A DNA stretch of 32,439 bases from an uncultured Pseudomonadota bacterium (lineage in GTDB: Bacteria > Desulfobacterota > Syntrophorhabdia > Syntrophorhabdales > Syntrophorhabdaceae): NCBI GenBank assembly GCA_937862865.1, contig CALMFJ010000092.1, positions 1 through 32,439 on the forward strand. The letters are read 5' to 3'. A program made the translations under genes and the position numbers. Shown piece by piece: positions 1 to 16,245 of this stretch; positions within the stretch are counted from its first letter, which is position 1; each line of letters begins with the position of its first letter. The notes under the pieces are model-generated. The model made no database searches and had not been told where the DNA came from. It worked only from the letters and a program-made list of their open reading frames with translations.

Positions 1-42
1 CTGTTCAGAATGACAATAGTAACAAACTGCAAGAAAAACAAA

Positions 43-89
43 GCCTTGGGTCCCGAACACCCCGAGGGTGCCCGGCGCCGGGATGACGG
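43..89 (+). repeat. REP-like dispersed repeat, copy A (GCCTTGGGTCCCG...GCCGGGATGACGG)
   Basis: Shares CCTTGG-x-CCCGG...CCGGGRTGACGG layout with copies at 10581-10618 (rc), 10671-10701 and 28844-28880 (rc). Confidence 0.6.
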
Positions 90-239
90 TGAGAGTGTTA
101 AGCCGGCACCCGGGATACCGCCGCTTTGGATGCTGTCAAAGAATTTCTACACAACAGCCCGGCGCGCCGGATCGGCCGTAAACTCCCGGCCCGGCCGGGC
201 ATTTGGAACGGACAATTATGTATTTTGAGACATAAAAAG

Positions 240-253
240 GAACAAAATTGTTC
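240..253 (+). promoter_or_regulatory. Candidate activator-binding inverted repeat GAACAA-AA-TTGTTC
   Basis: Dyad about 110 bp upstream of the sigma54 promoter; the same GGWACAAAATTGTT core occurs upstream of the NifA-like gene. Confidence 0.5.
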
Positions 254-360
254 AATGTCCGTGTTCTCTTTTGTGTGCGTTTGCGGGACCGAATTGCTTG
301 AACTCCGAAAATACCCCTCATTTTGCCGCGAAAAACCCGTTTTTGCAGGTCAGGCCCCAT

Positions 361-376
361 TGGCATCTCTTTTGCT
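361..376 (+). promoter_or_regulatory. Putative sigma54 (-24/-12) promoter TGGCATC-TCTT-TTGCT
   Basis: Matches TGGCAYR-N4-TTGCW with exact GG/GC spacing; about 60 bp upstream of the first ORF start. Confidence 0.75.
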
Positions 377-438
377 ATTATAGAGGGCATGAGTTACTAC
401 TGCAGCCATCGACAGCGTTACTAAATGGATAGGTAAAT

Positions 439-2271
439 ATGAGACTTTCAGAGAAATTCAAGCAAACCGCACCGGACGTCAGGATAATCGAACAAGAGGA
501 AAAAAAGGAAATGTACAGTCATGATATCGGGGACGTCCCCACGATCATGACGAACAGCCTTTTCAAGGTCCAGCCGGACTTTGTCGTCCAGCCGAAGACC
601 GTGGACGAGATAAAGCAGGTCCTCGCGTTCGCCAATGAGAACAGGGTCCCGGTCATACCGCGGGGCGCGGCGTCCTGGGGTTTCGGCGGGGTCATCCCGA
701 CCAATTCCGGCATCGTCGTCGACCTGTCCCCGTTCCGGAAGGTCCTGTACCTCAACAGGGGCCAGAAAACGGTCACCGTCGAGGCGGGCGCCCGCTGGGC
801 CGATATCGATATCCTTGCCAAGAAGGAAGGGCTGTGCCTGATGACGTACCCTTCCAGCAAGTTCTCGACGGTCGGCGGCTGGATCGCCACGGGCGGCTAC
901 GGGATAAACAGCCTCCGGTACGGCCACCTGTCGGCCCAGATCGTGTCGATGACGGTCGTGACAGCGCTCGGGGAAGCGAAGAAGCTCACGCCTACCGATC
1001 CTGAATTTGCGTACTACGTTTCCACAGAAGGCCTTTTCGGCATCATCGTCGAGGTCAACCTGAAACTGCGCGACGTGCCGGATGCGTCCTGCCCGCACCT
1101 CTTTTATTTCGGGACCGACACGGATGCCTTTGCGTTTATCGAAAAATTCATGGCTTCCGGGCAGGCCGACAGGCTTCGCCCGAACGTGATAAGGTTCCTC
1201 GACGCAAATCACCTGGACGATATCAATAAGATCATGCATCTTCAGGAATTCAAGAAAAGCCCGGCCGTTCTCATCGAGTTCGGCAGCACCGTGGACGACG
1301 CGGCGTTCATGAAGCTCGTCCGGGAAAACTTTGAGGTCGAAGAGGCCCCGAAATACGTGGCGAGCTATCTCTGGAACGAGCGCCTCTTCGGGATGAAGAC
1401 GAAGCGGCTCGGCCCCACGATCCTGGCGAGCGAGAACATCATCCCGATCGGCTCCGCAGCGAAATTCATCGAAAGGGCGAAAAAGCTCGGGTCTCATTTC
1501 GGCGTTGAGATATTTGTGGATTCGTATATACTCGATGCAAAAAAAGCGCTCATCATGACGAACTTCCTGTGCGATTCGCGCAAGTTCAAGTACTATATAG
1601 ATCTGCCCCTCACGATGATCCTGACGAAGGCGGCCGTCGCCAGCGGTGCGGAACCTTACGGCCTCGGCATCTGGAACGCGGGGTTTATCAATTACCTCTA
1701 CAGCGGCAAACAGAAGAAAGAATTACAGGCCTACAAGACCAGGGTCGACCCGAACAGCATCATGAACCCCGGCAAGTTCTTCCGGGTCAAGTCAATTTTG
1801 TTCAACCCGTTCATCCTGAATTTCGGGGTCGGCACGCTCAGCTTTTTCTCGCCTGTTCTCGGGAAGCTGGCAACCGCTTTCTTCGGTAAGGTGAAAAAGG
1901 TTGACGACCTCGATTTCGAGCTGATGACCCACGCCTGCGCGAAGTGCGGGAACTGCATCGCTGTTTGCCCGGCATATCTCGTGACCGGCAATGAAGAAAT
2001 GACAGCCAAGGGAAAGATAGCGCTGGCAAAGAAGCTGATCGAGGGCAAACCGATAACGAAAGAGGAGGCGGAAAAGGTCTTCATGTGCATGCATTGCCGG
2101 GCATGTGAGGAGATCTGCCAGACGAACCTCGAGCTCATGAACCTCTGGGACGCCCTGGAAAAAAGGATAGAAGCTATTACCGGCGGGCGGCCGGCGGAGA
2201 AGATCGACGAGTTCATCAAGAAGGTCGACGCGAGCTCGGATTACTGGGAAATGGTCGAAAGGAACAATTGA
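439..2271 (+). CDS. FAD-linked oxidase (GlcD/D-lactate dehydrogenase-like) with C-terminal twin [4Fe-4S] domain
   Basis: FAD_binding_4-type N-terminus (VQPKTVDEIKQVLAFANENRVPVIPRGAASWGFGGV); C-terminal CAKCGNCIAVCP and CMHCRACEEIC. Confidence 0.85.
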   Translation: MRLSEKFKQTAPDVRIIEQEEKKEMYSHDIGDVPTIMTNSLFKVQPDFVVQPKTVDEIKQVLAFANENRVPVIPRGAASWGFGGVIPTNSGIVVDLSPFRKVLYLNRGQKTVTVEAGARWADIDILAKKEGLCLMTYPSSKFSTVGGWIATGGYGINSLRYGHLSAQIVSMTVVTALGEAKKLTPTDPEFAYYVSTEGLFGIIVEVNLKLRDVPDASCPHLFYFGTDTDAFAFIEKFMASGQADRLRPNVIRFLDANHLDDINKIMHLQEFKKSPAVLIEFGSTVDDAAFMKLVRENFEVEEAPKYVASYLWNERLFGMKTKRLGPTILASENIIPIGSAAKFIERAKKLGSHFGVEIFVDSYILDAKKALIMTNFLCDSRKFKYYIDLPLTMILTKAAVASGAEPYGLGIWNAGFINYLYSGKQKKELQAYKTRVDPNSIMNPGKFFRVKSILFNPFILNFGVGTLSFFSPVLGKLATAFFGKVKKVDDLDFELMTHACAKCGNCIAVCPAYLVTGNEEMTAKGKIALAKKLIEGKPITKEEAEKVFMCMHCRACEEICQTNLELMNLWDALEKRIEAITGGRPAEKIDEFIKKVDASSDYWEMVERNN

Positions 2272-2295
2272 AAATACATAAGGTCGGGAACGGAC

Positions 2296-3708
2296 ATGCC
2301 AAAAAAATATCACATCGAGACAAAGATCACACCCCTCGAACTGGATTTCATTTATAAGTTCAGGATAGAACGGGGGGAGAACTGCATCAATTGCGGAAAG
2401 TGCACGAAGGTTTGCATCTATGAGGTGCACAGGCGCGGGCGTGACGGCGATCCCCGCAAGATGGCGCAGCCGGGCACGGTGAGCTGCCGCAACTGCTTCC
2501 GGTGCATCCAGGAGTGCCCCCGCGGCGCGCTCGAGAAGTCCCTCGACCGGGACTTCCTCAACATCGGCGGGTCCTACTGGAAGCCGGACATGTTCGTAAC
2601 CCTCTGGAAGCAGGCGGAGGACGGCAAGGTGCCGGTCACCGGTGCCGGTTACCGCGGCCCGTTCACGGGGCCCGGGTTCGACGGGATGTGGACGGACATG
2701 TCCGAGATCGTCCGCCCGACACGCGACGGCATCCATGGCAGGGAGTATATCAGCACGTCCGTTGAACTGGGCAGGAAACTCAACCACCTCGTTTTTGACG
2801 AGAATGCGCAGCTGGTGTCGAAGACGCACCCGACGGTCGACATCCCCATACCCATCGTTTTCGACTTCGTGCACGAAAAGCTGGCCCCCAACGTGAAGGC
2901 CGGTATCGTCAAGGCGGCGGCAAAATTGAACACGTTCGTCGTACTGTCGGCAAACGACATCACGCCCGACATGAAAGGCGACATAAAGAACATCATTCCC
3001 GTTGTACCGTATAAGGACATCGACGCGAACCAGGACCTTGTCCGGTCGGTCAGGGCCGTGGCCTTCGAGCATGACGGGGAGCTCGAAAAATCGCTCCCGG
3101 CTGTTATAGAAAAGGTCAAGAAACTCGGAAATGTCCTGACGATCGTCCGTATCCCCGCGACACGCTCCGTGGAGGATACGGTCCTTAAGCTTGCACAGAC
3201 CGGCGCGGAGATCATACACGTAATCGCCGACTACCGTGGTACGGAGATAAACACGGCCGGCGGAGAAAAACCCCTTCTTTCACGTGATGTGATCCGCGCC
3301 GTCCATCTCAAACTCGTCGACGAAAGGGTCCGCGATGAAGTGACCATACTTTTCTCGGGCGGGATCGCGATGGCGGAGCATGTGCCCAAGGCGATGATAT
3401 GCGGCGCGGACCTTACGGCCATCGATATTCCCCTCCTGATCGCGATCGGTACGAGGCTGTACGAAGAGCCGGAAAAGATCCTTGTCTTTGCCGAAGGGGT
3501 CGAGTCCCTGAGCGTGAACACGGTGACACAGAGGATGGTCAACCTGATGGGGGCCTGGCACTCCCAGCTTCTCGAGGTCATGGGCGCCATGGGGATCCGC
3601 GAGGCGCGGCGCCTGCGCGGGGAGACGGGCAGGGCCATCTTTTATGAAGAGATAGATGCCGATACATTCGGAAAATTATTTAAAAAAAGTGAGACGGTAA
3701 GCCTATGA
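2296..3708 (+). CDS. Ferredoxin-domain + diverged FMN-type glutamate-synthase-like protein
   Basis: CINCGKCTKVC and CRNCFRCIQECP clusters; C-terminal half follows the layout of the next gene but lacks the GGxGGTGA and 3Fe-4S cysteine motifs. Confidence 0.7.
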   Translation: MPKKYHIETKITPLELDFIYKFRIERGENCINCGKCTKVCIYEVHRRGRDGDPRKMAQPGTVSCRNCFRCIQECPRGALEKSLDRDFLNIGGSYWKPDMFVTLWKQAEDGKVPVTGAGYRGPFTGPGFDGMWTDMSEIVRPTRDGIHGREYISTSVELGRKLNHLVFDENAQLVSKTHPTVDIPIPIVFDFVHEKLAPNVKAGIVKAAAKLNTFVVLSANDITPDMKGDIKNIIPVVPYKDIDANQDLVRSVRAVAFEHDGELEKSLPAVIEKVKKLGNVLTIVRIPATRSVEDTVLKLAQTGAEIIHVIADYRGTEINTAGGEKPLLSRDVIRAVHLKLVDERVRDEVTILFSGGIAMAEHVPKAMICGADLTAIDIPLLIAIGTRLYEEPEKILVFAEGVESLSVNTVTQRMVNLMGAWHSQLLEVMGAMGIREARRLRGETGRAIFYEEIDADTFGKLFKKSETVSL

Positions 3709-5186
3709 AACCATCAACCGTACAGATCAAACCCATGCCGTCCCGGTTCAAACACCAGGTGCCGAAGTACAAGGTGACGCGGTCGAACGCGTGCATCAAC
3801 TGCAGCACATGCGCAAAGTCATGCCCGTACGGGGTCCATGAAAGGCTCGAGGGCCACAACAAGGTGCGCCCCCCGATCGATTACAGGTGCATCGGCTTTG
3901 AATGCGCGAAGAACGATTTCTACTGCGTCGACAAATGCCCGCGGAACGCCCTTTCCGTTTCGCTCAACCCGATGTACGAGACGCTGGGCGATTACCGCTG
4001 GACCGCGGACATGATCACGGGAACGTGGATCATGGCGGAGACGGGGTACCCCCCGGAACGCACCGACCTTGAATATAACGTGGGCAATTCGGGCGGGGGT
4101 TTTGACAAGCTCCGGCTCAAACTCCCGGCGGGCCGCCCAAAGATCGACAGGTTCGAGGTATCCACCGAGATACCGCTCAACAGGCGTAACGACGGCCGTG
4201 CCGATATCGTGATATCGACGCCCGTCTACGGGGGCGGAATGTCGTTCGGCTCGGTGAGCCTCGCCACGATGGTCTCCAAGGCGCACAACGCCGCGATCTG
4301 GAACACGTTCACGTGCACGGGCGAAGGCGGCTATCCCGAGATGCTCAAACCCTATGACGACCATGTCATAACGCAGGTGGCGACCGGGCTCTTCGGCGTG
4401 CGCGAAGAGACGATACAGCGCGTCAACATCGTTGAGTTCAAATATGCCCAGGGCGCAAAACCGGGCCTCGGCGGGCACCTGCTCGGCGAGAAGAACACCG
4501 AGAGCGTCGCCCGGATGCGCGAGGCGGTGAAGGGCTCGCCGCTCTTTTCCCCCTTCCCGTTCCACAGCGTCTATTCGATCGAAGACCACAAGAAGCACAT
4601 CGACTGGATCAAGGAGATCAACCCGAAGGCCCTCATATCGGTCAAGGTTTCGACCCCGAACGACGTGGACATGGTCGCTGTCGGTTCCTACTACGCCGGC
4701 GCCCATATCATCCACATCGACGGCGGGTACGGCGGCACGGGCGCGGCGCCGGACATCGCGAAGAAGAACATCGCGATGCCGATCGAGTACGCGATCACGA
4801 AGGTCCACAATTTCCTGAAAGAGGAAGGTGTGCGTGATCAGATGACACTCATTGCATCGGGAGGCGTCAGGTCTGCCCACGACCTCGCGAAAGCAATTTG
4901 CCTCGGTGCGGACGGCTGCGTCATCGGCACCGCCGAAATGGTCTCCCTGGAATGCGTCCGGTGCGGGAATTGCGAATCCGGGCGCGGGTGCGCGCGGGGC
5001 ATCGCGTCGACGGACTCGGTCCTTGCCGACCTCTTCAACGAGGAATGGGCGACCCAGCGGCTCACAAACATGTACCATGCCTGGAATGTCCAGCTCGTGG
5101 AGATATTGCAGAAGTTCGGGATGAGGAGCGTGCGCGAGCTTGTCGGGCGCACCGACCTTTTGGAACACATAGACTACAGCAAATAA
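3705..5186 (+). CDS. Glutamate synthase FMN/[3Fe-4S] domain protein with N-terminal ferredoxin domain
   Basis: PVYGGGMSFGSVS, GAKPGLGGHLLGEK, IHIDGGYGGTGAAP, LIASGGVRSAHDLAKAICLGAD, CVRCGNCESGRGCARGI; overlaps the previous gene by ATGA. Confidence 0.88.
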   Translation: MKPSTVQIKPMPSRFKHQVPKYKVTRSNACINCSTCAKSCPYGVHERLEGHNKVRPPIDYRCIGFECAKNDFYCVDKCPRNALSVSLNPMYETLGDYRWTADMITGTWIMAETGYPPERTDLEYNVGNSGGGFDKLRLKLPAGRPKIDRFEVSTEIPLNRRNDGRADIVISTPVYGGGMSFGSVSLATMVSKAHNAAIWNTFTCTGEGGYPEMLKPYDDHVITQVATGLFGVREETIQRVNIVEFKYAQGAKPGLGGHLLGEKNTESVARMREAVKGSPLFSPFPFHSVYSIEDHKKHIDWIKEINPKALISVKVSTPNDVDMVAVGSYYAGAHIIHIDGGYGGTGAAPDIAKKNIAMPIEYAITKVHNFLKEEGVRDQMTLIASGGVRSAHDLAKAICLGADGCVIGTAEMVSLECVRCGNCESGRGCARGIASTDSVLADLFNEEWATQRLTNMYHAWNVQLVEILQKFGMRSVRELVGRTDLLEHIDYSK

Positions 5187-5200
5187 ACGGGGTAACGCCA

Positions 5201-7828
5201 ATGACGGACAATGCCGAAAAAATATTACGTTCACGGGCCGGGATATTAGCTGAGGTACCCGCGCTTGCGCCCAATACGGAAGAAGAGGGCGGGTGCGGTG
5301 TCACCGGTTTTATCAGTTCTATCCCCGTGACGGGAAAGAACATCTTCGAGCCCTCGGTGCAGATGCATAACAGGGGCAACGGAAAGGGAGGCGGGATCGG
5401 TGCTGTCGGTTTCGTCCCCGAGGCCATGGGTGTGTCGCAGCAGGTCCTTCGGGACGACTACATGCTCCACATCGCCCTTCTCGACCCGTCCGTGCGCGGC
5501 GAGATAGAGAGCGCGTTCATCAAGCCGTACTTCACGGTGGACAAGGAAGAGAAGCTCGATACCATCGACGACCACCGCGCGATCGGGCTCGATGTGAAGC
5601 CGCCCGATATCGTGCGGTACTTCGTGCGGGTCAAAGACGACGTTCTCGACCCCTTCATCGAGAAGAACGGTTTTTCGGCACTCGACCGCCGTGATGCCGA
5701 GGACGAGTTTGTCTACCAGAACAGCTTCAGGATAAACACGCAGTATTACGCGTCGCTCGGCGAGAAGAAGGCGTTCGTCATGTCCCACGGCAGGAACATG
5801 ATGATCCTGAAGATAGTCGGTTACGCAGAAAATGTTGTCAGATATTACAAGCTCGACGATTTCAAGGCGCACGCATGGCTCGCGCACCAGCGCTACCCCA
5901 CGCGCGGGCGTGTCTGGCATCCCGGCGGGTGCCACCCTTTCAGCGCCCTCAACGAGGCCCTGGTGCACAACGGCGACTTCGCGAACTATCAGTCCGTGAA
6001 CGAATACCTGAAGCAGCGCAACTACTTTCCCCTGTTCCTGACGGACACGGAAGAGGCGGCGCTTCTTCTCGACCTGTGGAGCAGGGTCTACAAATACCCC
6101 CTCGAGTACCTCATCGAGGCGATGGCGCCGACGTCGGAGATGGACTTCGACATGCTGCCCGCCGACAAGCAGGCGCTGTACAAGGCCATCCAGACCCACC
6201 ACGTCAACGCCTCGCCTGACGGGCCGTGGTTCTTCATCATCGCGCGCAACGACGTCAGGAACGGCCAGTTCCAGCTGATAGGCATCACGGACACCGCGAT
6301 GCTCCGCCCGCAGGTCTTTGCCCTGCAGGAGGGCGACGTTCAGATAGGCCTCATATGCTCGGAGAAACAGGCGATCGACGCGACGCTGATCTCGCTCGAA
6401 CGCGAGGACGCCCGCTTCCGGCCGATCGCGGACAAATACTGGAACGCCCGCGGCGGCAGCTACACGGACGGCGGCGCATTCATCTTCAGCCTGAAAGATA
6501 CCGGGAACGGGATGAAGCTTATATGCACGGATAAATTCGGCAAGGTCATCGAGACCCCGAAGGACAAGCAGATCTGCGATGTCGCGAAACCCGTCGAAAT
6601 CGGCGGCAGTTTCGCAAAAGCCGATGACCTGAGCGCGCTCTTTTCAACGAGCGACAGCTCTTTCATTCCCGAAAAGCTCTTTGCGTTCGTCAGGGACAAC
6701 ATCACCGGTTTCAGCCCCGACGACCTGCGGCGTTCAATAGAGGAGATAAGAAAATACGCCGAAAAGGGCGACGCATGCCAACAGGCGGCGATCGAGGCGT
6801 TGACGCGGCTTGCGGACCTCAGGTTCAATACCGGCTCCATAAAAAGAAGCTCACTCCAGCACCTTGTGAAGATCGCCCTGGATTCCATCCTCGACACCGT
6901 CCCGATCATAACCGGTCCGGGCAGCGGCCTTTTCAGCCGCATCGATTTCGAGACGAGGCGCGACGTCCGCGCACCGCTGGGAGATGAAAAGGTGCTCGTC
7001 ATCGACGCGGAGCATTTCGAGCCCGAGGGCGACGACTGCGACGCGGTGACCATCGTCAGGGCGTTCAAGCTCGGCTGGAGGCGGTTCATCGTCTATAAGT
7101 ACCGCGGCCAGCGTTTTACGGGCTGCGGGTTCGGGCCGTCAACCGAAGACGTGAGGATCGACGTGTACGGCTCATCCGGCGATTACCTTGCGTCCGGAAT
7201 TGACGGGATGGAGATCTACGTCCACGGCAACGCGCAGGACCAGCTCTGCCAGATCATGAAGGACGGGAAACTCGTCGTCTTCGGCGACGTCGGCCAGACA
7301 TTCATGTACGGCGCCAAGGGCGGGGCCGCCTACATCATGGGCAACGCGGCGGGCAGGCCGCTCATCAACGCGGTCGGAAGGCCCCGGGTCGTCATCAACG
7401 GAACGGCGCTCGACTACCTCGCCGAGTCCTTCATGGCGGGCGACCCGTTGAACGGCGGCGGCTTTGTTATCTTAAACGGGATCGGCTTCAACGACGAGGA
7501 CGGTTCCATTACGGAATATGACACGCCGTATCCCGGGTCGAACATCTTCTCTCTCGCGTCCGGCGGCGCGATATATGTCCGCGACCCGCGGAAAAAACTG
7601 GTCGACGAGCAGTTGAACGGCGGGGAGTACGCCCCGCTTACCGACGCGGACTGGGGACTGATCGAATCATACCTGCAAGAGAACGAAAAGCTCTTCGGCA
7701 TTACGATAGGCAGGCTGCTCACGGTCGACGGCACGAAGAAAGACCCGAAGGACGTCTACAGGAAGATACGGCCGCTGAAGGCCCCGGCCGTTAAGAAAGA
7801 CAATGACGGCTTAAGTGAAACGTGTTAG
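5201..7828 (+). CDS. Glutamate synthase-type class-II glutamine amidotransferase + GXGXG domain protein
   Basis: CGVTGFISSIP N-terminus, HQRYPTRGRVWHPGGCHPFSALNEALVHNGDFANY, C-terminal GXGXG region (VFGDVGQTFMYGAKGGAAYIMGNAAGRPLINAVGRPRVVINGTALDYLAESFMAG). Start set at ATG 5201; the listed ORF start at 4898 overlaps the upstream gene. Confidence 0.88.
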   Translation: MTDNAEKILRSRAGILAEVPALAPNTEEEGGCGVTGFISSIPVTGKNIFEPSVQMHNRGNGKGGGIGAVGFVPEAMGVSQQVLRDDYMLHIALLDPSVRGEIESAFIKPYFTVDKEEKLDTIDDHRAIGLDVKPPDIVRYFVRVKDDVLDPFIEKNGFSALDRRDAEDEFVYQNSFRINTQYYASLGEKKAFVMSHGRNMMILKIVGYAENVVRYYKLDDFKAHAWLAHQRYPTRGRVWHPGGCHPFSALNEALVHNGDFANYQSVNEYLKQRNYFPLFLTDTEEAALLLDLWSRVYKYPLEYLIEAMAPTSEMDFDMLPADKQALYKAIQTHHVNASPDGPWFFIIARNDVRNGQFQLIGITDTAMLRPQVFALQEGDVQIGLICSEKQAIDATLISLEREDARFRPIADKYWNARGGSYTDGGAFIFSLKDTGNGMKLICTDKFGKVIETPKDKQICDVAKPVEIGGSFAKADDLSALFSTSDSSFIPEKLFAFVRDNITGFSPDDLRRSIEEIRKYAEKGDACQQAAIEALTRLADLRFNTGSIKRSSLQHLVKIALDSILDTVPIITGPGSGLFSRIDFETRRDVRAPLGDEKVLVIDAEHFEPEGDDCDAVTIVRAFKLGWRRFIVYKYRGQRFTGCGFGPSTEDVRIDVYGSSGDYLASGIDGMEIYVHGNAQDQLCQIMKDGKLVVFGDVGQTFMYGAKGGAAYIMGNAAGRPLINAVGRPRVVINGTALDYLAESFMAGDPLNGGGFVILNGIGFNDEDGSITEYDTPYPGSNIFSLASGGAIYVRDPRKKLVDEQLNGGEYAPLTDADWGLIESYLQENEKLFGITIGRLLTVDGTKKDPKDVYRKIRPLKAPAVKKDNDGLSETC

Positions 7829-7888
7829 TATGTGTACCCTGAAAAAGCCGTCCCGGCACCGGGCCGGCCGCAGCACCGGCGGTGAGTT

Positions 7889-10471
7889 ATGAAACCTATA
7901 TCAGGGGTCTCGACCGGCATCAACGGCCTCGATAAGACGCTCAATTACCTGCAGATGGGCGACAACGTCGTCTTCCAGGTCGAGGATGTCGCCGATTACC
8001 GGCGGTTCGTCGATCCCTACATCAAGGAAGCCCTGGAACAGGGGCGGCGTGTCGTGTACATGCGGTTCGCCCAGCACCCCCCGATCGTGGAATCGAGCGG
8101 TCAGGTCGTTATCTACAAGCTCAACGCGGACATCGGTTTCGAGTCGTTCTCCACGCAGGTCCACTACATTATCAGGCAGGAAGGCCGCGACGTTTTTTAC
8201 GTGTTCGACTGCCTGTCCGACCTCCTCCTGACATGGGCCACCGACCTCATGATCGGTAACTTTTTCGTGATCACCTGCCCGTACCTTTTCGAGTTGAACA
8301 CGGTCGCGTATTTCGCCATCCTCCGCAACCGGCACTCCTTCAAGACGATCGCGCGCATCAGGGAGACGACGCAGGTCCTTCTCGACGTGTACAATTACAA
8401 CGGCAAACTGTGCGTGCACCCGATAAAGGCCTGGCAGCGCTACTCGCCGACAATGTTCCTGCCTCACCTCATGGAAGGGGATGAGTTCGTCCCCATCCTG
8501 AACAGCGCCGACGCGTCGAACATATTTTCGTATCTCAACCTGGCGGCAACCTCCGGGCCCGAAAGGAACCTCGACTCCTGGGACAGGATATTCATCGAGG
8601 CGAAGGAGATGCTTGATGCACCCGACAGCGAAGAGAGGCAGGCGATGGTCGAGCAGCTGTCCCGCGTCATGATCAGCAAGGAAAAGAGGATGCTTTCGTT
8701 GATCAGGGAGCACTTTACCCTCGAAGACCTCATCGAGATAAAGGAGCGCCTCATCGGGACGGGCTTCATCGGCGGCAAATCGACGGGCATGCTGCTCGCG
8801 CGCAACATCCTGCGCAAAGACCCGGCATTCGACTGGTCGAAGCACCTCGAGATGCACGACTCGTTCTACATCGGGTCGGACGTCTTCTACTCCTTCATCG
8901 TGCAGAACGGTCTGTGGCGGACGCTCATGCAGCACAAGACGAAGGAGAATTACTTCGAGAGCGCCGTTGAGCTGAAAGAGAAGATGCTGAAGGGGAAATT
9001 CCCGGAAGAAGTGTTGGAACCGTTTCAGCTCATGCTGGAATATTTCGGGCAGTCCCCGATAATCGTCCGGTCGAGCAGCCTTCTCGAGGACGCCTTCGGC
9101 AACGCGTTTGCCGGCAAGTATGAGAGCTATTTCTGCGCGAACCAGGGTTCGCCCGAGGAGCGTTTCGAGAAATTTGAAGAGACGGTGAAAAAAATATTCG
9201 CGAGCACCATGAACGTGGATGCCCTGACATACCGCCTCCAGAGGGGACTCGACCAGCAGGACGAGCAGATGGCGCTTCTCGTTCAGCGCGTCTCCGGTTC
9301 GCACCGCACGTATTACTTCTTTCCCGAACTGGCGGGCGTCGGCCTGTCGTACAACACGTTCGTCTGGCAGAAGGGCCTCGATCCGCGTGCGGGAATGCTC
9401 AGGCTCGTCTTCGGGCTCGGCACCCGCGCGGTCAACCGCATCGAGAACGACTACCCCCGGATCGTCGCGCTCGACAACCCTTCGATCAAGCCTTTCGTGA
9501 AACCGCAGGACACGGCGCGCTTTTCCCAGCACTACGTCGACGTCCTCAACCTCGAGGAGAACCTCTTCGAGTCGCTCCCGTCAGCCGACGTGCTGGGTGA
9601 CGGTTTTGACGCGCGTCTCGACCTCATCGCCACTCGTGACGCCGAGGCAAGCGAAAGGATGCGGGCGCTGGGGAAGTTCAAGGACATATGGGTACTTACC
9701 TTCGACGAACTGCTTTCCTCGACGGAGTTCCCCGTTCTCATGTCGAAGATGCTCAAGCGCCTTGAGTCCGTCTATGATTACCCGGTGGACATCGAGTTCA
9801 CGGCAAACTTCAACCTCGACGGCAGGGTCCAGGTCAACCTCCTGCAGTGCAGGCCGTTCCAGACAAAAGAGGATTACACCCCGGCGGAGATCCCCGCCAA
9901 CATCAAGAAGAACAAGATACTGGTCCGGCAGGAAGGCAACTTCATGGGCGGCAGCGTGCAGAAGAACATAGCGCGCGTCATCTACGTCGACCCGAAGGGG
10001 TACACGGGCCTGCAGCTCTCCCAGAAATACAGCGTCGCCCGGCTGGTCGGGAAGGTCAACAAGACGATCCCCGGCAGGGAGGAAATGCCGACCATCCTCT
10101 TCGGCCCGGGCAGATGGGGCACGACGACGCCCGCAATGGGCGTGCCCGTGACCTTCTCCGAGATCAATAACGTGGCGGCCATAGCCGAGATAGCCTACAA
10201 GGAAGGGAGCCTTATACCCGACCTCTCTTTCGGGACCCACTTCTTCCAGGACATGGTTGAAATGGACATCTTCTACATGGCCATCTACCCCGAGCAGGAG
10301 GATGTCACATTCAACATGTCCCTCTTCAAATCCCTTCCCAACGTCCTCGAAGAGATCGTCCCGGGAAGCCGGGAATTCGCCGACATCGTTCGCGTCTACG
10401 ACGTCAGCAAAAAGAAACTCGTCCTCGCCTCAACCATCGTCGATCAGAAGATGATCTGCTTTTTTAATTGA
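7889..10471 (+). CDS. Degenerate KaiC/RecA-like domain fused to PPDK/PEP-synthase ATP-grasp domain
   Basis: TGINGLDKTLNYLQMGDNVVFQVEDV (KaiC-like without P-loop GxxGKT); IVRSSSLLEDAFGNAFAGKYESYF and VNLLQCRPFQTKEDY typical of PPDK_N. Confidence 0.8.
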   Translation: MKPISGVSTGINGLDKTLNYLQMGDNVVFQVEDVADYRRFVDPYIKEALEQGRRVVYMRFAQHPPIVESSGQVVIYKLNADIGFESFSTQVHYIIRQEGRDVFYVFDCLSDLLLTWATDLMIGNFFVITCPYLFELNTVAYFAILRNRHSFKTIARIRETTQVLLDVYNYNGKLCVHPIKAWQRYSPTMFLPHLMEGDEFVPILNSADASNIFSYLNLAATSGPERNLDSWDRIFIEAKEMLDAPDSEERQAMVEQLSRVMISKEKRMLSLIREHFTLEDLIEIKERLIGTGFIGGKSTGMLLARNILRKDPAFDWSKHLEMHDSFYIGSDVFYSFIVQNGLWRTLMQHKTKENYFESAVELKEKMLKGKFPEEVLEPFQLMLEYFGQSPIIVRSSSLLEDAFGNAFAGKYESYFCANQGSPEERFEKFEETVKKIFASTMNVDALTYRLQRGLDQQDEQMALLVQRVSGSHRTYYFFPELAGVGLSYNTFVWQKGLDPRAGMLRLVFGLGTRAVNRIENDYPRIVALDNPSIKPFVKPQDTARFSQHYVDVLNLEENLFESLPSADVLGDGFDARLDLIATRDAEASERMRALGKFKDIWVLTFDELLSSTEFPVLMSKMLKRLESVYDYPVDIEFTANFNLDGRVQVNLLQCRPFQTKEDYTPAEIPANIKKNKILVRQEGNFMGGSVQKNIARVIYVDPKGYTGLQLSQKYSVARLVGKVNKTIPGREEMPTILFGPGRWGTTTPAMGVPVTFSEINNVAAIAEIAYKEGSLIPDLSFGTHFFQDMVEMDIFYMAIYPEQEDVTFNMSLFKSLPNVLEEIVPGSREFADIVRVYDVSKKKLVLASTIVDQKMICFFN

Positions 10472-10477
10472 AAAGAA

Positions 10478-10501
10478 GGCAACGGGCAATGGGCGATAGG
10501 G
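10478..10501. repeat. Period-7 array GGCAACG-GGCAATG-GGCGATA-GGG
   Basis: Direct reading; related to arrays at 14656 and 16245. Confidence 0.7.
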
Positions 10502-10580
10502 AAATTCCTGCTGCCTCTTCCCTGCGTTCTTCGTTTCGTCCGGATACCAACTCTTCCGCGCGTGCCGGAATCAAACATAA

Positions 10581-10701
10581 CCGTCATTCCGGTGCTTGAC
10601 ACCGGAATCCAAGGTTTTGTTTCTATACCCATTTTCCTGTTTCAGATATCCGAAAGATCGAGAAGAAAAACCTTGGGCCCCGGCCTTCGCCGGGGTGACG
10701 G
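10581..10701. repeat. Inverted pair of REP-like copies B (rc, 10581-10618) and C (10671-10701)
   Basis: CCGTCATTCCGGTGCTTGACACCGGAATCCAAGG and CCTTGGGCCCCGGCCTTCGCCGGGGTGACGG in opposite orientation between convergent genes. Confidence 0.65.
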
Positions 10702-10799
10702 ACAGGAATAATTGCGGCACAGTTTCCTTGCGGCCCGAATGACGATGGCGGTGGGGCTTCTTAATTTTGATGAGGGCCGTCAGAAGGGGTTTCGGGCGC

Positions 10800-12326
10800 T
10801 TATTGCCTCTTGCCCGTCTTCTTGAACGCTTTCGGGTCTATGCCGAGTTTGGATATTTTGTATTGGATGATGCGTTTGGTGGTGCCGAGCATTTTGGCGG
10901 CCTGGGTCTGGTTGCCGCCGGTTGTCTCGAGCATGTCGATGATGAGGGCCCTTTCCTGGGCCTCGACGAGGGATGAGAGTTTGTCGGGGTCTTTCCTGTC
11001 CCCGTTCGATTCCCTGACCTGCAGGGAAGGGGGCAGGTGCATGATGTCGACCGTGCCGGTGTTTGTCAGCAGGACCGCCCTCTCGATGCAGTTCTCGAGC
11101 TCGCGGACGTTTCCCGGCCACTTGTGGGCGAGGAACGCCTCTATTGCGGCGGTCGATATGTTCCGCACGTCCTTGGCCATCTCCCTGGCGTATTTCAGGA
11201 CAAAATGGTCCGCAAGGAGAATGATGTCGCTTCCCCTCTCCCTCAGGGGAGGCATGTATATCGGGAAGACATTGAGGCGATAGTACAGGTCTGCCCTGAA
11301 CCGGTCCGCATGGATGTCCTGCTCTAAGTCCCTGTTCGTTGCCGCAATGATGCGGACGTTGACCGTCACGACCCGCGACGACCCGAGCGGCTGGAACCTT
11401 TTTTCCTGCAGGACCCGAAGGAGCTTCACCTGGGCGGCGGCGGAAAGCTCGCCCACTTCATCGAGGAAGATCGTACCGTTGTTCGCCTCTTCAAAGCGTC
11501 CCCTCCGCTGGTGCAGGGCCCCCGTGAACGCCCCCTTCTCATGGCCGAAGAGCTCGCTTTCAATGAGCGTGTCGGGGATCGCGGCACAGTTGACCTGAAC
11601 GAAAGGCCCCTTCTTTCGGGGGGAATTCATGTGGATCGCCTGGGCGATCAATTCCTTTCCCGTTCCCGTTTCGCCGCCGATCAGGACCGTCGTTTTCGAG
11701 TCCGCGACCTGCGCGACAAGGGCGAAGATGTCCTGCATCACCTTGGAGTGGCCGATGATGTCAAGCGACGGCGCCCGGGGAAGGCCGACGAGTTTTTTCA
11801 GCCTCCTGTTCTCTTCCTCCAGGGCCCGTATATGAACGGATTTTGCGATGAGCTGCGCGACGGCGGCGAGCATGGCGAGCTCCTTGTCGAGGTTTTCGAC
11901 CTCGCGCGCCACCTTGTCCGCCGAGAGCACCCCGACCACCTGGTTGTCGTACATTATCGGAACGCATAAGAATGCGAGCTCGGAACGATTCAGGTGGCGG
12001 CGTGCGCCGGTCCTGTCGAGAAAATGCTTGGCGCGCCCGAGGTTGGCGACGGCCATCGGCCGCCCCGACTGGGCGACCTCGCCGGTGATGCCTTCTCCGG
12101 GTTTGTATGTCACGTCCATGCCTTCTATGTTCACGTCATGGGCTATGTCGAGCCAGACCTCGTTCTTTTCACGGTCGTAAAGGGATATCATGCCCCGCTG
12201 CATCCCGAGGCGTATGTGCATCTCGTTGAGGATCTGGTCGAGCTCTTCGCGCAGGTCGGTCGGCTGTGCGAGTATCTTCGCTATGGCATGCAGCGCTGCC
12301 AGCTCTTCATAGCTATGGATGCTCAA
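10800..12326 (-). CDS. NifA-like sigma54-dependent activator (GAF, AAA+, Fis HTH)
   Basis: [15 protein letters not shown] Walker [25 protein letters not shown], Fis [33 protein letters not shown] region [23 protein letters not shown] start at 12326 ([17 protein letters not shown]) preferred over ORF-track start 12590. Confidence 0.88.
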
Positions 12327-12364
12327 GGCGCCCCCGGAAGTCCATCGCGACCATAGCAACAATA

Positions 12365-12381
12365 TGTAACAATTTTGTACC
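12365..12381 (-). promoter_or_regulatory. Motif GGTACAAAATTGTTACA upstream of NifA-like gene
   Basis: Minus-strand reading; near-identical to GGAACAAAATTGTTC at 239-253. Confidence 0.5.
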
Positions 12382-12407
12382 AATTTCAACCTGTTTTTGT
12401 ATTCCGG

Positions 12408-12422
12408 CCAATTTTGTACAAT
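12408..12422 (-). promoter_or_regulatory. Second motif copy ATTGTACAAAATTGG
   Basis: Minus-strand reading; shares TACAAAATTG with 12365-12381. Confidence 0.4.
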
Positions 12423-12538
12423 CCTGGATTTATCCCTTCCCCACGGATATTCAGGTGTGATAGTATGGTGTTCATTCCCATGATAGCATGGGGATGCTTC
12501 CCCATAACGGGGATCGAGATCGGTATGCAAGGATGGCC

Positions 12539-14647
12539 ATGAAGAACGGCAGGGGCACACGGCAGGTCGAGATAGCAGAACTGAGGGCACAGATCGCCGC
12601 CCTCGAAGACAGGCAGACCGCGCTTACGAGAGAGGTCGGGGAATACCGTAATATCATAGACAACATGGTCGAAGGCATGTTCCGCATCACGCTCGAAGGT
12701 GATGTCCTCAATATCAACTCCGCCGGGGCAGCCATACTGGGATACGATTCCCGGGAAGATTTCTTCGCCCATGTCAAGAAGGCGGAGGATATCTGGGGAG
12801 TGCCGCAAGACCGGGCACAGGTACACGAACTTATCAAGGAGACCGGATTCCTAAAAGAATTTGTCATGCAGGGCCGATGCAAGAACGGGGAAGCCCGCTG
12901 GGTGACCGTGAACGTCCGGCTCGCGCGGAACAAGGACGGCGACATCCTGTATAACGAAGGCACGTTCCAGGATATCCACGAGCGCAAGCAGTTGGAAGAT
13001 CAGCTCACGGAAAGCAAAAAGCTCGCGCGGACCCTTCTTGACCTTCCCTTGAATAATATCATTGTTCTGATGGGTATTGACGGGACCATACTTGACTGCA
13101 ATCAGGCCGTGGCGGACCGCCTGGCTTTGAGCATACCGGAGATTATCGGGAAAAGCCTTTTTGATTTTCTGCCCCCCGACGCGGTGAAAAGAAGGAAAGA
13201 AAAGATACGGGAAATGATACAGACGAAAAAACCCATCCGTATGGAGGATATGGTATTGGGGTGCTGGTATGACAGCACGGCGTACCCGATCCCGGACGAA
13301 AACGGGAACATAACGAAGATAGCCGCTTTCTCCTACGACATAACCAGCCGGATAGTGACACAGGAAAGGCTCAAAGGGAGCGAGGCGCGCTTCCGCAGCT
13401 ATTTTGAACTGCCGCTCGTAGGCATTGTCATAGCGACGCCGGAAAAGAACTTCATCGAGGCGAACGACAGGGCGTGCGAGATCCTCGGCTATCCGCGGGA
13501 AGAACTGCTCCGCGCGCGATGGGACCGGCTGACGCATCCCGACGACCTGTCGCGGGACCTCGCGAATGTCGAGCGTGTCGTACGCGGTGAACTGCCGCAT
13601 TATTCTTCCGAAAAACGTTACCGGCGCAAGGACGGCACGTATATCTGGGCCATCGTCTCGGTGGCCGCCGTCAGGAAACCCGACGGTGATGTGGATTATA
13701 TGGTCGCGATCATTCAGGATATAGATGAGCGTAAAAAAATGGAGGAAGAGCTCATCATGCACCGCGATCACCTCGGAAAACTTGTAGCCGAACGGACCGA
13801 GGAGATGAACCGGGAGATGATGCGGCGCAAGGAAAAAGAGGAGCAGTATCAATCCCTTGTCGAATCGATCGTGGAGTGGGTCTGGGAAACGGATGAGCAC
13901 TTCGTCATTACATACAACAGCCCGAGGGTGTCTGAATACCTGGGATACGAGCCGGAGTTCTTCCTGGGCAAGACCCCTTATGACTTCATGTTGCCCGATC
14001 GTGTCCCTGAAGTCAGGAAGTATATAAGCCGCCGGAAGCCTTTCGTGTCTATGCAGATGCCGCACACGGACAAGAACGGCAACAGCGTCCTGATCGAGGG
14101 AAGCGGCACGCCGTATTTTGACAGGGATGGCCTGTTCCGGGGTTACCGCGGCAGCTGCCGTGATATAACCGAGCAGAAGCGGACAATGGACAAGCTGCAG
14201 GAGCGTGAGAAGCAGCTCATGGCACAGTCGGAGACATTGAAGGAAACGAACGCCGCGCTGCGGGTCCTGCTCAAGCAAAGGGAGGACGACAAACGTGAGA
14301 TGGAGGACATGTTCATATCCAACATAAAGGAGATGGTCCTTCCCTACGTGCACAAGATGCGGAAAGAAAAGATAGAGATGCGCCACAGGGCGTACCTCGA
14401 TATCATTAACACCAACCTCAACGAGATAATGGCCCCGTTCCTCAACAGGATACGGCAGCTGAACTTCACACCGAAAGAGATAGAGGTCGCCTCGCTCATC
14501 AGGGACGGAAAGACGACGAAGGAGATCGCCGAGATCATGGGCGTCGCCACAAGCGCCATAGACTCACACAGGAATAACATAAGAACGAAACTCGGGCTGA
14601 TAAAGAAGGATGTGAACCTGAGGTCGTATTTGATGACGTTTAAATGA
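12539..14647 (+). CDS. Multi-PAS sensor with C-terminal LuxR-type HTH
   Basis: Four PAS/PAC-like blocks ([45 protein letters not shown]-like, [17 protein letters not shown]) and C-terminal [50 protein letters not shown] 12539 is preceded by AAGG; ORF-track start is 12488. Confidence 0.85.
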
Positions 14648-14655
14648 ACAAAACA

Positions 14656-14682
14656 GGCAATAGCCCATAGCCCATATGCCCC
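14656..14682. repeat. Period-7 array GGCAATA-GCCCATA-GCCCATA-TGCCCC
   Basis: Direct reading; fills the gap just before ATG 14683. Confidence 0.65.
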
Positions 14683-16245
14683 ATGCGCAGATCATTCATC
14701 GAGATAAATCCTGAATTTCAGAGGGCCCTCGACGTTATGGAGGGGACCAATAAGCACGTCTTTGTCACGGGGAAGGCGGGGACGGGGAAGTCGACGCTGC
14801 TTGAGTATTTTCGGAGGAACACGCAGAAGGACGTCGCTGTTCTTGCGCCGACCGGTGTTGCGGCGCTCAATGTCGAGGGGCAGACGATCCATTCGTTTTT
14901 CGGGTTCAAGCCGAGCATCACCCCGGAGAAGGTGAAAAAGATAGGCGGCCCGGACGCCGCGATCTACAAGGAATTCGACACGATCATTATCGATGAGGTC
15001 TCCATGGTGAGGGCCGACCTCCTCGACTGCGTCGAAAAGTTCATGAGGCTCAACGGGCCGTACCGGAAGCAGTGGTTCGGCGGGGTCCAGATGATCTTTG
15101 TCGGGGACCTCTACCAATTGCCGCCCGTCGTCGCGTCTGCGGAAAGGGAGATATTCAGCCACCGGTACGAGTCCCCGTATTTTTTCTCGGCCCGGGTGTT
15201 CAAGGAGCGGACCTTTTCGATGGAGTATATCGAACTGGAAAAGGTGTACCGCCAGACGGAGCAGGACTTCATCGAGCTTCTGAACGGGATACGGAACCGG
15301 ACGTGCACCGACGCCGATATCGAGCGGCTCAACACAAACCACCGGCCCGGCGCCGGTGGGCCGTCCGACGGGTTTTTCATAACGCTCACGAGCACGAACG
15401 ATCTCGCCACGGAACGCAACCTCGAGATGCTCGAGGCCCTCCCCGACCGGGCCTTTACCCTGACCGGCAAGATGAGCGGCCTCTTCGAGAGATCGTCGCT
15501 GCCGGCCGAGGAGCACCTGACCCTGAAGCCGGGCGCACAGGTCATGCTCGTCAATAATGACAGGTTCGGCCGCTGGGTGAACGGCACCCTCGGGATAGTG
15601 AAGGGCTTGAGCAAGGTGAGCGGGGAAGAGGACAGGGTGCTCGTGCGCCTCGACGACGGAAAGATGGTCGAGGTCACGCCGAACGCGTGGGAGCTCTTCG
15701 AGTACCAGTACGACCGGAAGACGAAAAAGATCTCGACACGGGCGACCGGCACCTTTACGCAGTACCCGATACGCCTCGCATGGGCGGTCACCATCCACAA
15801 GGCCCAGGGAAAGACCTTCGACCGCGTTGTGATCGACATGGGCCGGGGAGCCTTTGCCCACGGGCAGGTGTACGTCGCTTTGAGCCGGTGCACGAATTTC
15901 GACGGCATAACCCTGACGAAGATGATCACGAAGAAACACATCCGTATGGACTGGCGCGTCGCAAAATTCCTCACCATGTTCCAGTACCGGAAGGCTGACG
16001 AGCTTTCGGGCTACGATGAACGCAGCAATATCATACGCGACGCCATCCGCCGCGGCGTCAACCTCGAGATACTCTACCTCAAGCCGAACGACACGAAGTC
16101 ACGCCGCGTCATATGCCCCATAGCCATAGAACGGATGGAATTCAAAGGAAGGCCCTTCGAGGGCCTCCGCGCCCATTGCCTCATGCGCAATGAGGAACGG
16201 CATTTCCGGATAGACCGGATACTGGAGATAAATTATAGTAACTAG
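14683..16245 (+). CDS. Pif1/RecD2-like helicase with C-terminal WYL-like domain
   Basis: VFVTGKAGTGKSTLLEYF, VAVLAPTGVAALNVEGQTIHSFF, IIIDEVSMVRADLLD, AWAVTIHKAQGKTFD, VYVALSRCTNFDGI; C-terminal LEILYLKPNDTKSRRVICPIAIERMEFKGRPFEGLRAHCLMRNEERHFRIDRILEI resembles WYL. Confidence 0.85.
   Translation: MRRSFIEINPEFQRALDVMEGTNKHVFVTGKAGTGKSTLLEYFRRNTQKDVAVLAPTGVAALNVEGQTIHSFFGFKPSITPEKVKKIGGPDAAIYKEFDTIIIDEVSMVRADLLDCVEKFMRLNGPYRKQWFGGVQMIFVGDLYQLPPVVASAEREIFSHRYESPYFFSARVFKERTFSMEYIELEKVYRQTEQDFIELLNGIRNRTCTDADIERLNTNHRPGAGGPSDGFFITLTSTNDLATERNLEMLEALPDRAFTLTGKMSGLFERSSLPAEEHLTLKPGAQVMLVNNDRFGRWVNGTLGIVKGLSKVSGEEDRVLVRLDDGKMVEVTPNAWELFEYQYDRKTKKISTRATGTFTQYPIRLAWAVTIHKAQGKTFDRVVIDMGRGAFAHGQVYVALSRCTNFDGITLTKMITKKHIRMDWRVAKFLTMFQYRKADELSGYDERSNIIRDAIRRGVNLEILYLKPNDTKSRRVICPIAIERMEFKGRPFEGLRAHCLMRNEERHFRIDRILEINYSN

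Follow-up and report, generated by a model that had tools for sequence, protein, structure and literature searches.

A probable ammonia-assimilating glutamate synthase in which a PCMH-type FAD/Fe-S protein stands in place of GltD

Results

A probable split glutamate synthase operon lacking GltD

We analyzed a gene cluster, A to E, in the genome (2.64 Mb, 96.5% complete) of an uncultured Syntrophorhabdaceae bacterium; among named genomes, those closest to it are uncultured deltaproteobacterial, Syntrophaceae, and Smithella ones. The cluster lies on contig CALMFJ010000092.1 (C92), the whole of which, 32,439 bases, is called the window here. A-B-C-D are one operon, with spacings from a 4-base overlap to 24 bases, and E starts 60 bases past D (Table 1). 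We propose, with a probability of roughly 0.78, that A-B-C-D encode a glutamate synthase of ammonia assimilation in which a non-homologous subunit of the same cofactor set has taken over from GltD. The evidence pointing this way is read from sequence and comprises domain content, catalytic residues, co-occurrence, gene fusion, nitrogen-gene context, and a putative sigma-54 site.

Table 1. Cluster genes and candidate regulatory features in the window (FAD, flavin adenine dinucleotide; FMN, flavin mononucleotide; AF2, AlphaFold2; HTH, helix-turn-helix).
Feature	Position	Strand	Description	Basis
Promoter-like site	361..376	+	sigma-54 (-24/-12) promoter-like site TGGCATCTCTTTTGCT, 78 bp before A	
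A	439..2271	+	PCMH-type FAD protein with C-terminal two-[4Fe-4S] domain	Pfam/NCBIfam, AF2, Foldseek
B	2296..3708	+	two-[4Fe-4S] ferredoxin domain and degenerate GltB FMN-type barrel	Pfam, alignment, profile, AF2
C	3705..5186	+	two-[4Fe-4S] ferredoxin domain and catalytic GltB FMN/3Fe-4S/2-oxoglutarate domain	Pfam PF01645, alignment
D	5201..7828	+	class-II glutamine amidotransferase and GXGXG in a single protein	Pfam, conserved residues
E	7889..10471	+	PPDK_N (ATP-grasp) protein, accessory	Pfam PF01326, 173 bits
Regulator	10800..12590	-	GAF, sigma-54 activator, and Fis HTH domains; convergent to the operon	Pfam

A preliminary description of the window had proposed a split glutamate synthase without GltD, with the amidotransferase and GXGXG domains in one open reading frame (ORF) and the FMN/3Fe-4S domain in a ferredoxin-fused one. 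Our analysis supports this proposal, and Pfam agrees on the domains, finding GATase_6 and GXGXG in D and ferredoxin plus Glu_synthase (290 bits) in C. C aligns with GltB structures across the FMN/3Fe-4S domain and, in an alignment of 103 relatives with E. coli GltB, has conserved AQGAKPG, SP-P-H--YSIED, and GG-GGTGA motifs together with the three 3Fe-4S cysteines (C417, C423, and C429). In D, the class-II amidotransferase residues Cys32, Arg231, Asn257-Gly258, and Asp340-Gly341, common to E. coli GltB, are kept in at least 97% of 78 relatives. Conservation reaches this level (at least 97%) for the catalytic residues of both half-reactions among the relatives of C and D, and what marks a GltB-type enzyme by sequence is present between the two proteins: the amidotransferase residues and GXGXG in D, the FMN/2-oxoglutarate site and the 3Fe-4S cysteines in C. 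The ORF coordinates given earlier stand for A, B, C, and E; for D, the ATG at 5201 is a better start than the TTG at 4898 listed for its ORF.

The earlier description overlooked B, a second ferredoxin-fused Glu_synthase paralogue. Its Pfam Glu_synthase match is weak (30 bits), its ferredoxin domain is present, and its AF2 model has a barrel fold (pLDDT 78). B lacks the catalytic stretch conserved in C, and the cysteine motif of the barrel, kept in B of 84 relatives, is lost in the window protein and its clade. We also considered B as a homologue of the GltB central domain and ruled this out because the B profile aligns, weakly, to the FMN domain (GltB 978-1163).

The protein that leads the cluster had been described as GlcD/D-lactate-dehydrogenase-like, with FAD and twin [4Fe-4S] clusters, and here Pfam and the predicted fold concur. 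A matches FAD_binding_4 (117 bits), weakly FAD-oxidase_C, and a 4Fe-4S dicluster domain, and two [4Fe-4S] motifs occur in all 50 copies of A. Its AF2 model (pLDDT 84.7) contains the PCMH-type FAD fold of D-2-hydroxyacid dehydrogenases, and Foldseek returned D-lactate dehydrogenases and LctD (7qh2); the best profile match is LctD 7qh2 and the best fold matches are mLDHD. GltD carries FAD and two [4Fe-4S] clusters. Because A supplies this same set, A most simply replaces GltD, and we regard it as probably a cofactor-equivalent replacement.

Searches of the window confirmed that it holds no GltD-like protein; the TIGR01316 matches of the genome lie on other contigs, and of these NfnB alone, adjoining an NfnA-type protein, scores above cut-off. 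The cluster is the one GltB-type enzyme of this genome. We did not take a third, weak PF01645 match (C156, 21.7 bits), which we guess to be GuaB-like, for a glutamate synthase. Across the phylum sample, 86 genomes have B or a fused or partial form; canonical GltB is missing from 80 of them and present in 6 (Fisher p = 6e-5, uncorrected for kinship).

Conserved order, fusion, and exchangeable electron modules

Of the 297 genomes in the phylum sample, 77 have a B orthologue and nine more a fused or partial form. C and then D follow B in nearly all loci long enough to judge, the exceptions being two ANME-1 loci (L119 and L128) with A-B and no C-D. This breadth and near-constant order indicate that the arrangement is not due to chance. 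The named loci reach Dehalococcoidia, ANME-1, Methanocellales, Methanomassiliicoccaceae, and others; single contigs from metagenome-assembled genomes labelled Opitutia, Pirellulaceae, and Akkermansiaceae may be misbinned.

A adjoins B-C-D across Syntrophales, Dehalococcoidia, ANME-1, Methanocellales, and other lineages, and in one bacterial family (L170-L174) all four are fused into a single protein of 2,528-2,551 amino acids (~2,540). The conserved adjacency and the full fusion argue that A belongs to the enzyme. In one further locus (L081, G007, 8001-15619) the A-B-C-D fusion, intact in L170-L174, is split into two frames by a genuine or assembly frameshift.

The expectation that A would be conserved beside the gltB-like genes held in this set of lineages and failed in most Desulfobacterota relatives, where MvhD, usually with MetV and MetF, stands in the place of A. 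The loci thus have two layouts, A-B-C-D and MvhD(-MetV-MetF) followed by B-C-D. Among the 34 MvhD-type loci from the phylum sample, MvhD is present in 33, MetV in 28, and MetF in 26; in three named loci (L125, L127, and L131) MetV lies 3' of D rather than 5' of B, as does MetF in two. On a tree of C the layouts require 3 changes, compared with ~31 when the labels are shuffled. The clade that contains the window has full support and comprises 25 A-type rows, from both Syntrophales and Dehalococcoidia, whereas the MvhD form is carried by other genera of the window's own family; this pattern suggests that the layouts were swapped by horizontal replacement, as judged from a tree made by a short search in which 32 of 91 inner branches have below 80% support. 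B-C-D appears to be a shared core to which different electron modules can be attached.

Nitrogen-gene context and a putative sigma-54 promoter

The neighbours of the cluster are recurrently genes of nitrogen assimilation. Where ANME-1 contigs permit, the order is amtB-glnK-glnA-A-B-C-D-carB; a type III glutamine synthetase (GS) gene is divergent to A in most Syntrophales loci of sufficient length; and amtB-PII(-GS) lies beside the cluster in several Dehalococcoidia. In the fusion family, L170-L173 have GS before and the carbamoyl-phosphate synthase gene (carB) after, and L174 has neither in its stretch. GS genes occur in 33 of 54 A-type loci and 15 of 34 MvhD-type loci, 19 of the latter having at least one of GS, AmtB, and PII. 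These counts are of loci, several of them on short contigs, and some genomes were included twice under two ids. With B-C-D recurring beside these genes, the cluster is best read as a glutamate synthase of nitrogen assimilation. In Methanocella conradii coculture, glutamate synthase genes, possibly B-C-D orthologues, are reported to be repressed together with GS genes (PMC6046458).

The window genome has two type III GS genes, on contigs other than C92. One begins 254 bases into contig C69, and a short match to the GS-A spacer of relatives occurs in the DNA immediately 5' of this gene, making it plausible from the sequence that their GS-A layout also exists here.

The promoter-like site upstream of A is the best sigma-54 match of the window and the only one with at most one mismatch. 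All seven Syntrophales relatives examined have an equivalent site 5' of A, six of them at a distance of 87-116 bp and the seventh at 294 bp, and such sites are rare elsewhere (13 in 260 kb on both strands, these included). In other lineages, sites with two mismatches are the best found in two ANME-1 loci and one Dehalococcoidia locus, and three loci have none. A sigma-70 promoter scan showed no excess. The product of the convergent regulator gene is a candidate regulator of the sigma-54 promoter, and an orthologue of this activator adjoins the cluster in L086-L090, L094, L099, and L103.

Comparison with known systems

Like bacterial NADPH-dependent GltB-GltD, the cluster combines glutaminase, FMN/3Fe-4S, and GXGXG domains having matching catalytic residues with an electron-input subunit of FAD and two [4Fe-4S] clusters. 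It differs in its split genes, the ferredoxin domains on B and C, the extra barrel B, the lack of a strong match to the GltB central domain, and the unrelated protein A in GltD's place. With split archaeal-type glutamate synthases it shares a ferredoxin-fused FMN domain and an exchangeable electron-input subunit, but its amidotransferase and GXGXG domains form one protein, it has a second, degenerate barrel, and it uses A instead of FrhB or GltA. Among the archaeal-type enzymes, F420-dependent forms with FrhB as the plug are proposed (PMC9012536). Pfam found no FrhB-type domain in A-E. A resembles the LctD/D-lactate dehydrogenase/GlcD family (7qh2, 8jdb) in fold and FAD-binding domain, and differs in lacking the metal and catalytic motifs, in its two-[4Fe-4S] tail, and in its tie to a GltB-type enzyme, genetic in general and covalent in one family.

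The Desulfobacterota version recalls the MetVF-MvhD-HdrABC complex of Moorella thermoacetica, cited in PMC5736913 and PMC7325909: MvhD-MetV-MetF genes lie beside a redox core in both, but the core here is B-C-D and not HdrABC. Separately from the window cluster, the window genome has a Moorella-like MetF-Hdr locus on another contig (G000:C113, L168), where a methylenetetrahydrofolate reductase (MetF) gene lies near a 1,477-amino-acid HdrA-like protein with HdrB- and HdrC-type neighbours. In the open-licence literature we found no description of a combination of MetF, MvhD, and glutamate synthase, or of an FAD oxidase and glutamate synthase.

Discussion

We hypothesize that D hydrolyses glutamine and hands ammonia to C, which would aminate and reduce 2-oxoglutarate on its FMN/3Fe-4S domain. 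The barrel of B would be non-catalytic, with the attached ferredoxin domain helping to conduct electrons. In A, electrons would enter at the FAD and pass by way of the two [4Fe-4S] clusters to the ferredoxin domains carried by B and C. The preliminary description had suggested glutamate formation, or a related amidotransfer, with a donor other than NADPH, such as a 2-hydroxyacid or an Fe-S carrier. Glutamate formation as the likely reaction is supported by the catalytic residues, the glnA/amtB/PII neighbours, and the sigma-54 site, whereas the 2-hydroxyacid is not supported (see below). The donor of A is most likely ferredoxin or NAD(P)H, the latter having been set aside in that description.

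One alternative, which we consider distinctly improbable, is an electron-bifurcating glutamate synthase that splits electrons from a mid-potential donor between 2-oxoglutarate (downhill) and ferredoxin (uphill), with the FAD of A, or else the extra barrel B, as the second flavin site. The closest solved sequence relative of A is indeed the lactate dehydrogenase subunit of a bifurcating complex, the sequences predict two barrels of flavin type and as many as six [4Fe-4S] clusters, A gives way in Desulfobacterota to MvhD, which partners bifurcating HdrA, and the carriers are mostly energy-limited anaerobes. However, the cluster has no Etf or HdrA subunit, the barrel cysteine motif of B is lost in the window clade, and counts of Fe-S clusters do not by themselves demonstrate bifurcation.

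Less credible still is that A oxidizes a 2-hydroxyacid (D-lactate, glycolate, or 2-hydroxyglutarate) to drive glutamate synthesis. The fold of A and its LctD and mLDHD matches would fit, as would the retained arginine of the WxxR motif, but the GDGN-x-H motif of D-lactate and glycolate dehydrogenases is found in none of the 50 A proteins, and at the EHG position all have PYGxGxWN or a close variant (the L173 copy contains the letters EHG as well as PYGLGIWN). The conserved neighbours are GS, AmtB, PII, and CarB, with no lactate or glycolate genes among those annotated.

N-methylglutamate synthase MgsABC has the same three domain types as the GltB-type enzymes considered here. Another GltB-like amidotransfer or transfer enzyme of this kind, at which the MetF-MetV neighbours in Desulfobacterota might hint through a one-carbon link, is very hard to credit, as the glutamine-hydrolysis and synthase residues match GltB, the GS/AmtB/PII context is common to A-type and MvhD-type loci, and the cluster largely substitutes for canonical GltB, with E. 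coli GltB as the reference in the comparison of residues. No methylamine-utilization context was seen among the annotated neighbour genes.

In the glutamate synthase reading that we prefer, the reaction, the order of electron transfer, the role of A as input rather than output, and the donor are what we infer. Several points weigh against this reading. The GS genes of the window genome lie on other contigs, and their adjacency to the cluster is presumed. The highly conserved pocket of A (WNER, PYGxGxWN) could oxidize some further substrate. Truncated GltD-family fragments at contig ends (C88:3-689 and C130:2-679) make a GltD partner elsewhere conceivable. Glutamate dehydrogenase is also encoded in the window genome, as in ten relatives tested, so the cluster enzyme need not be the sole route to glutamate. 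On two contigs, G104 C95 and G152 C49, the B-C-D cluster has a glutamate dehydrogenase gene only a few kb away.

Glutamate synthase is a main entry of nitrogen into biomass, and this form of it is found in uncultured and in syntrophic anaerobes relevant to methane cycling. A wider and speculative idea, in our view unlikely, is that B-C-D is a general glutamate-forming electron sink with pluggable donors, in at least one version bifurcating to ferredoxin. Syntrophs, Dehalococcoidia, and ANME-1 would then use A as the plug, and Desulfobacterota would use MvhD-MetV-MetF, which would wire methyl-tetrahydrofolate oxidation directly into glutamate synthesis. With bifurcation, ammonia assimilation would become energy-conserving. 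The ideas of a methyl-tetrahydrofolate donor and of bifurcation draw on general knowledge. Exchangeable donor modules, including the possible methyl-tetrahydrofolate link, make the electron cost of glutamate in these organisms a testable question.

Other features of the window and its relatives

E follows D in most Syntrophales relatives and a few others, adjoining it in L042-L044, L056, L088-L090, L093, L099, L103, and L114; it had no match in PHROGs. L044 has a second E-like gene (4-2157, minus strand), located upstream of the cluster and on the strand opposite to it. The window gave no matches in Rfam or tRNA scans. An ankyrin-repeat protein at 20424-21443 (minus strand) has a C-terminal Kunitz/BPTI domain, an odd pairing for a bacterium. 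Over 28000-32439 the G+C content drops from ~0.58 to 0.48, and around this low-G+C end of the window lie an IS200-like transposase (26944-27924) and a Schlafen-type helicase (29303-31267).

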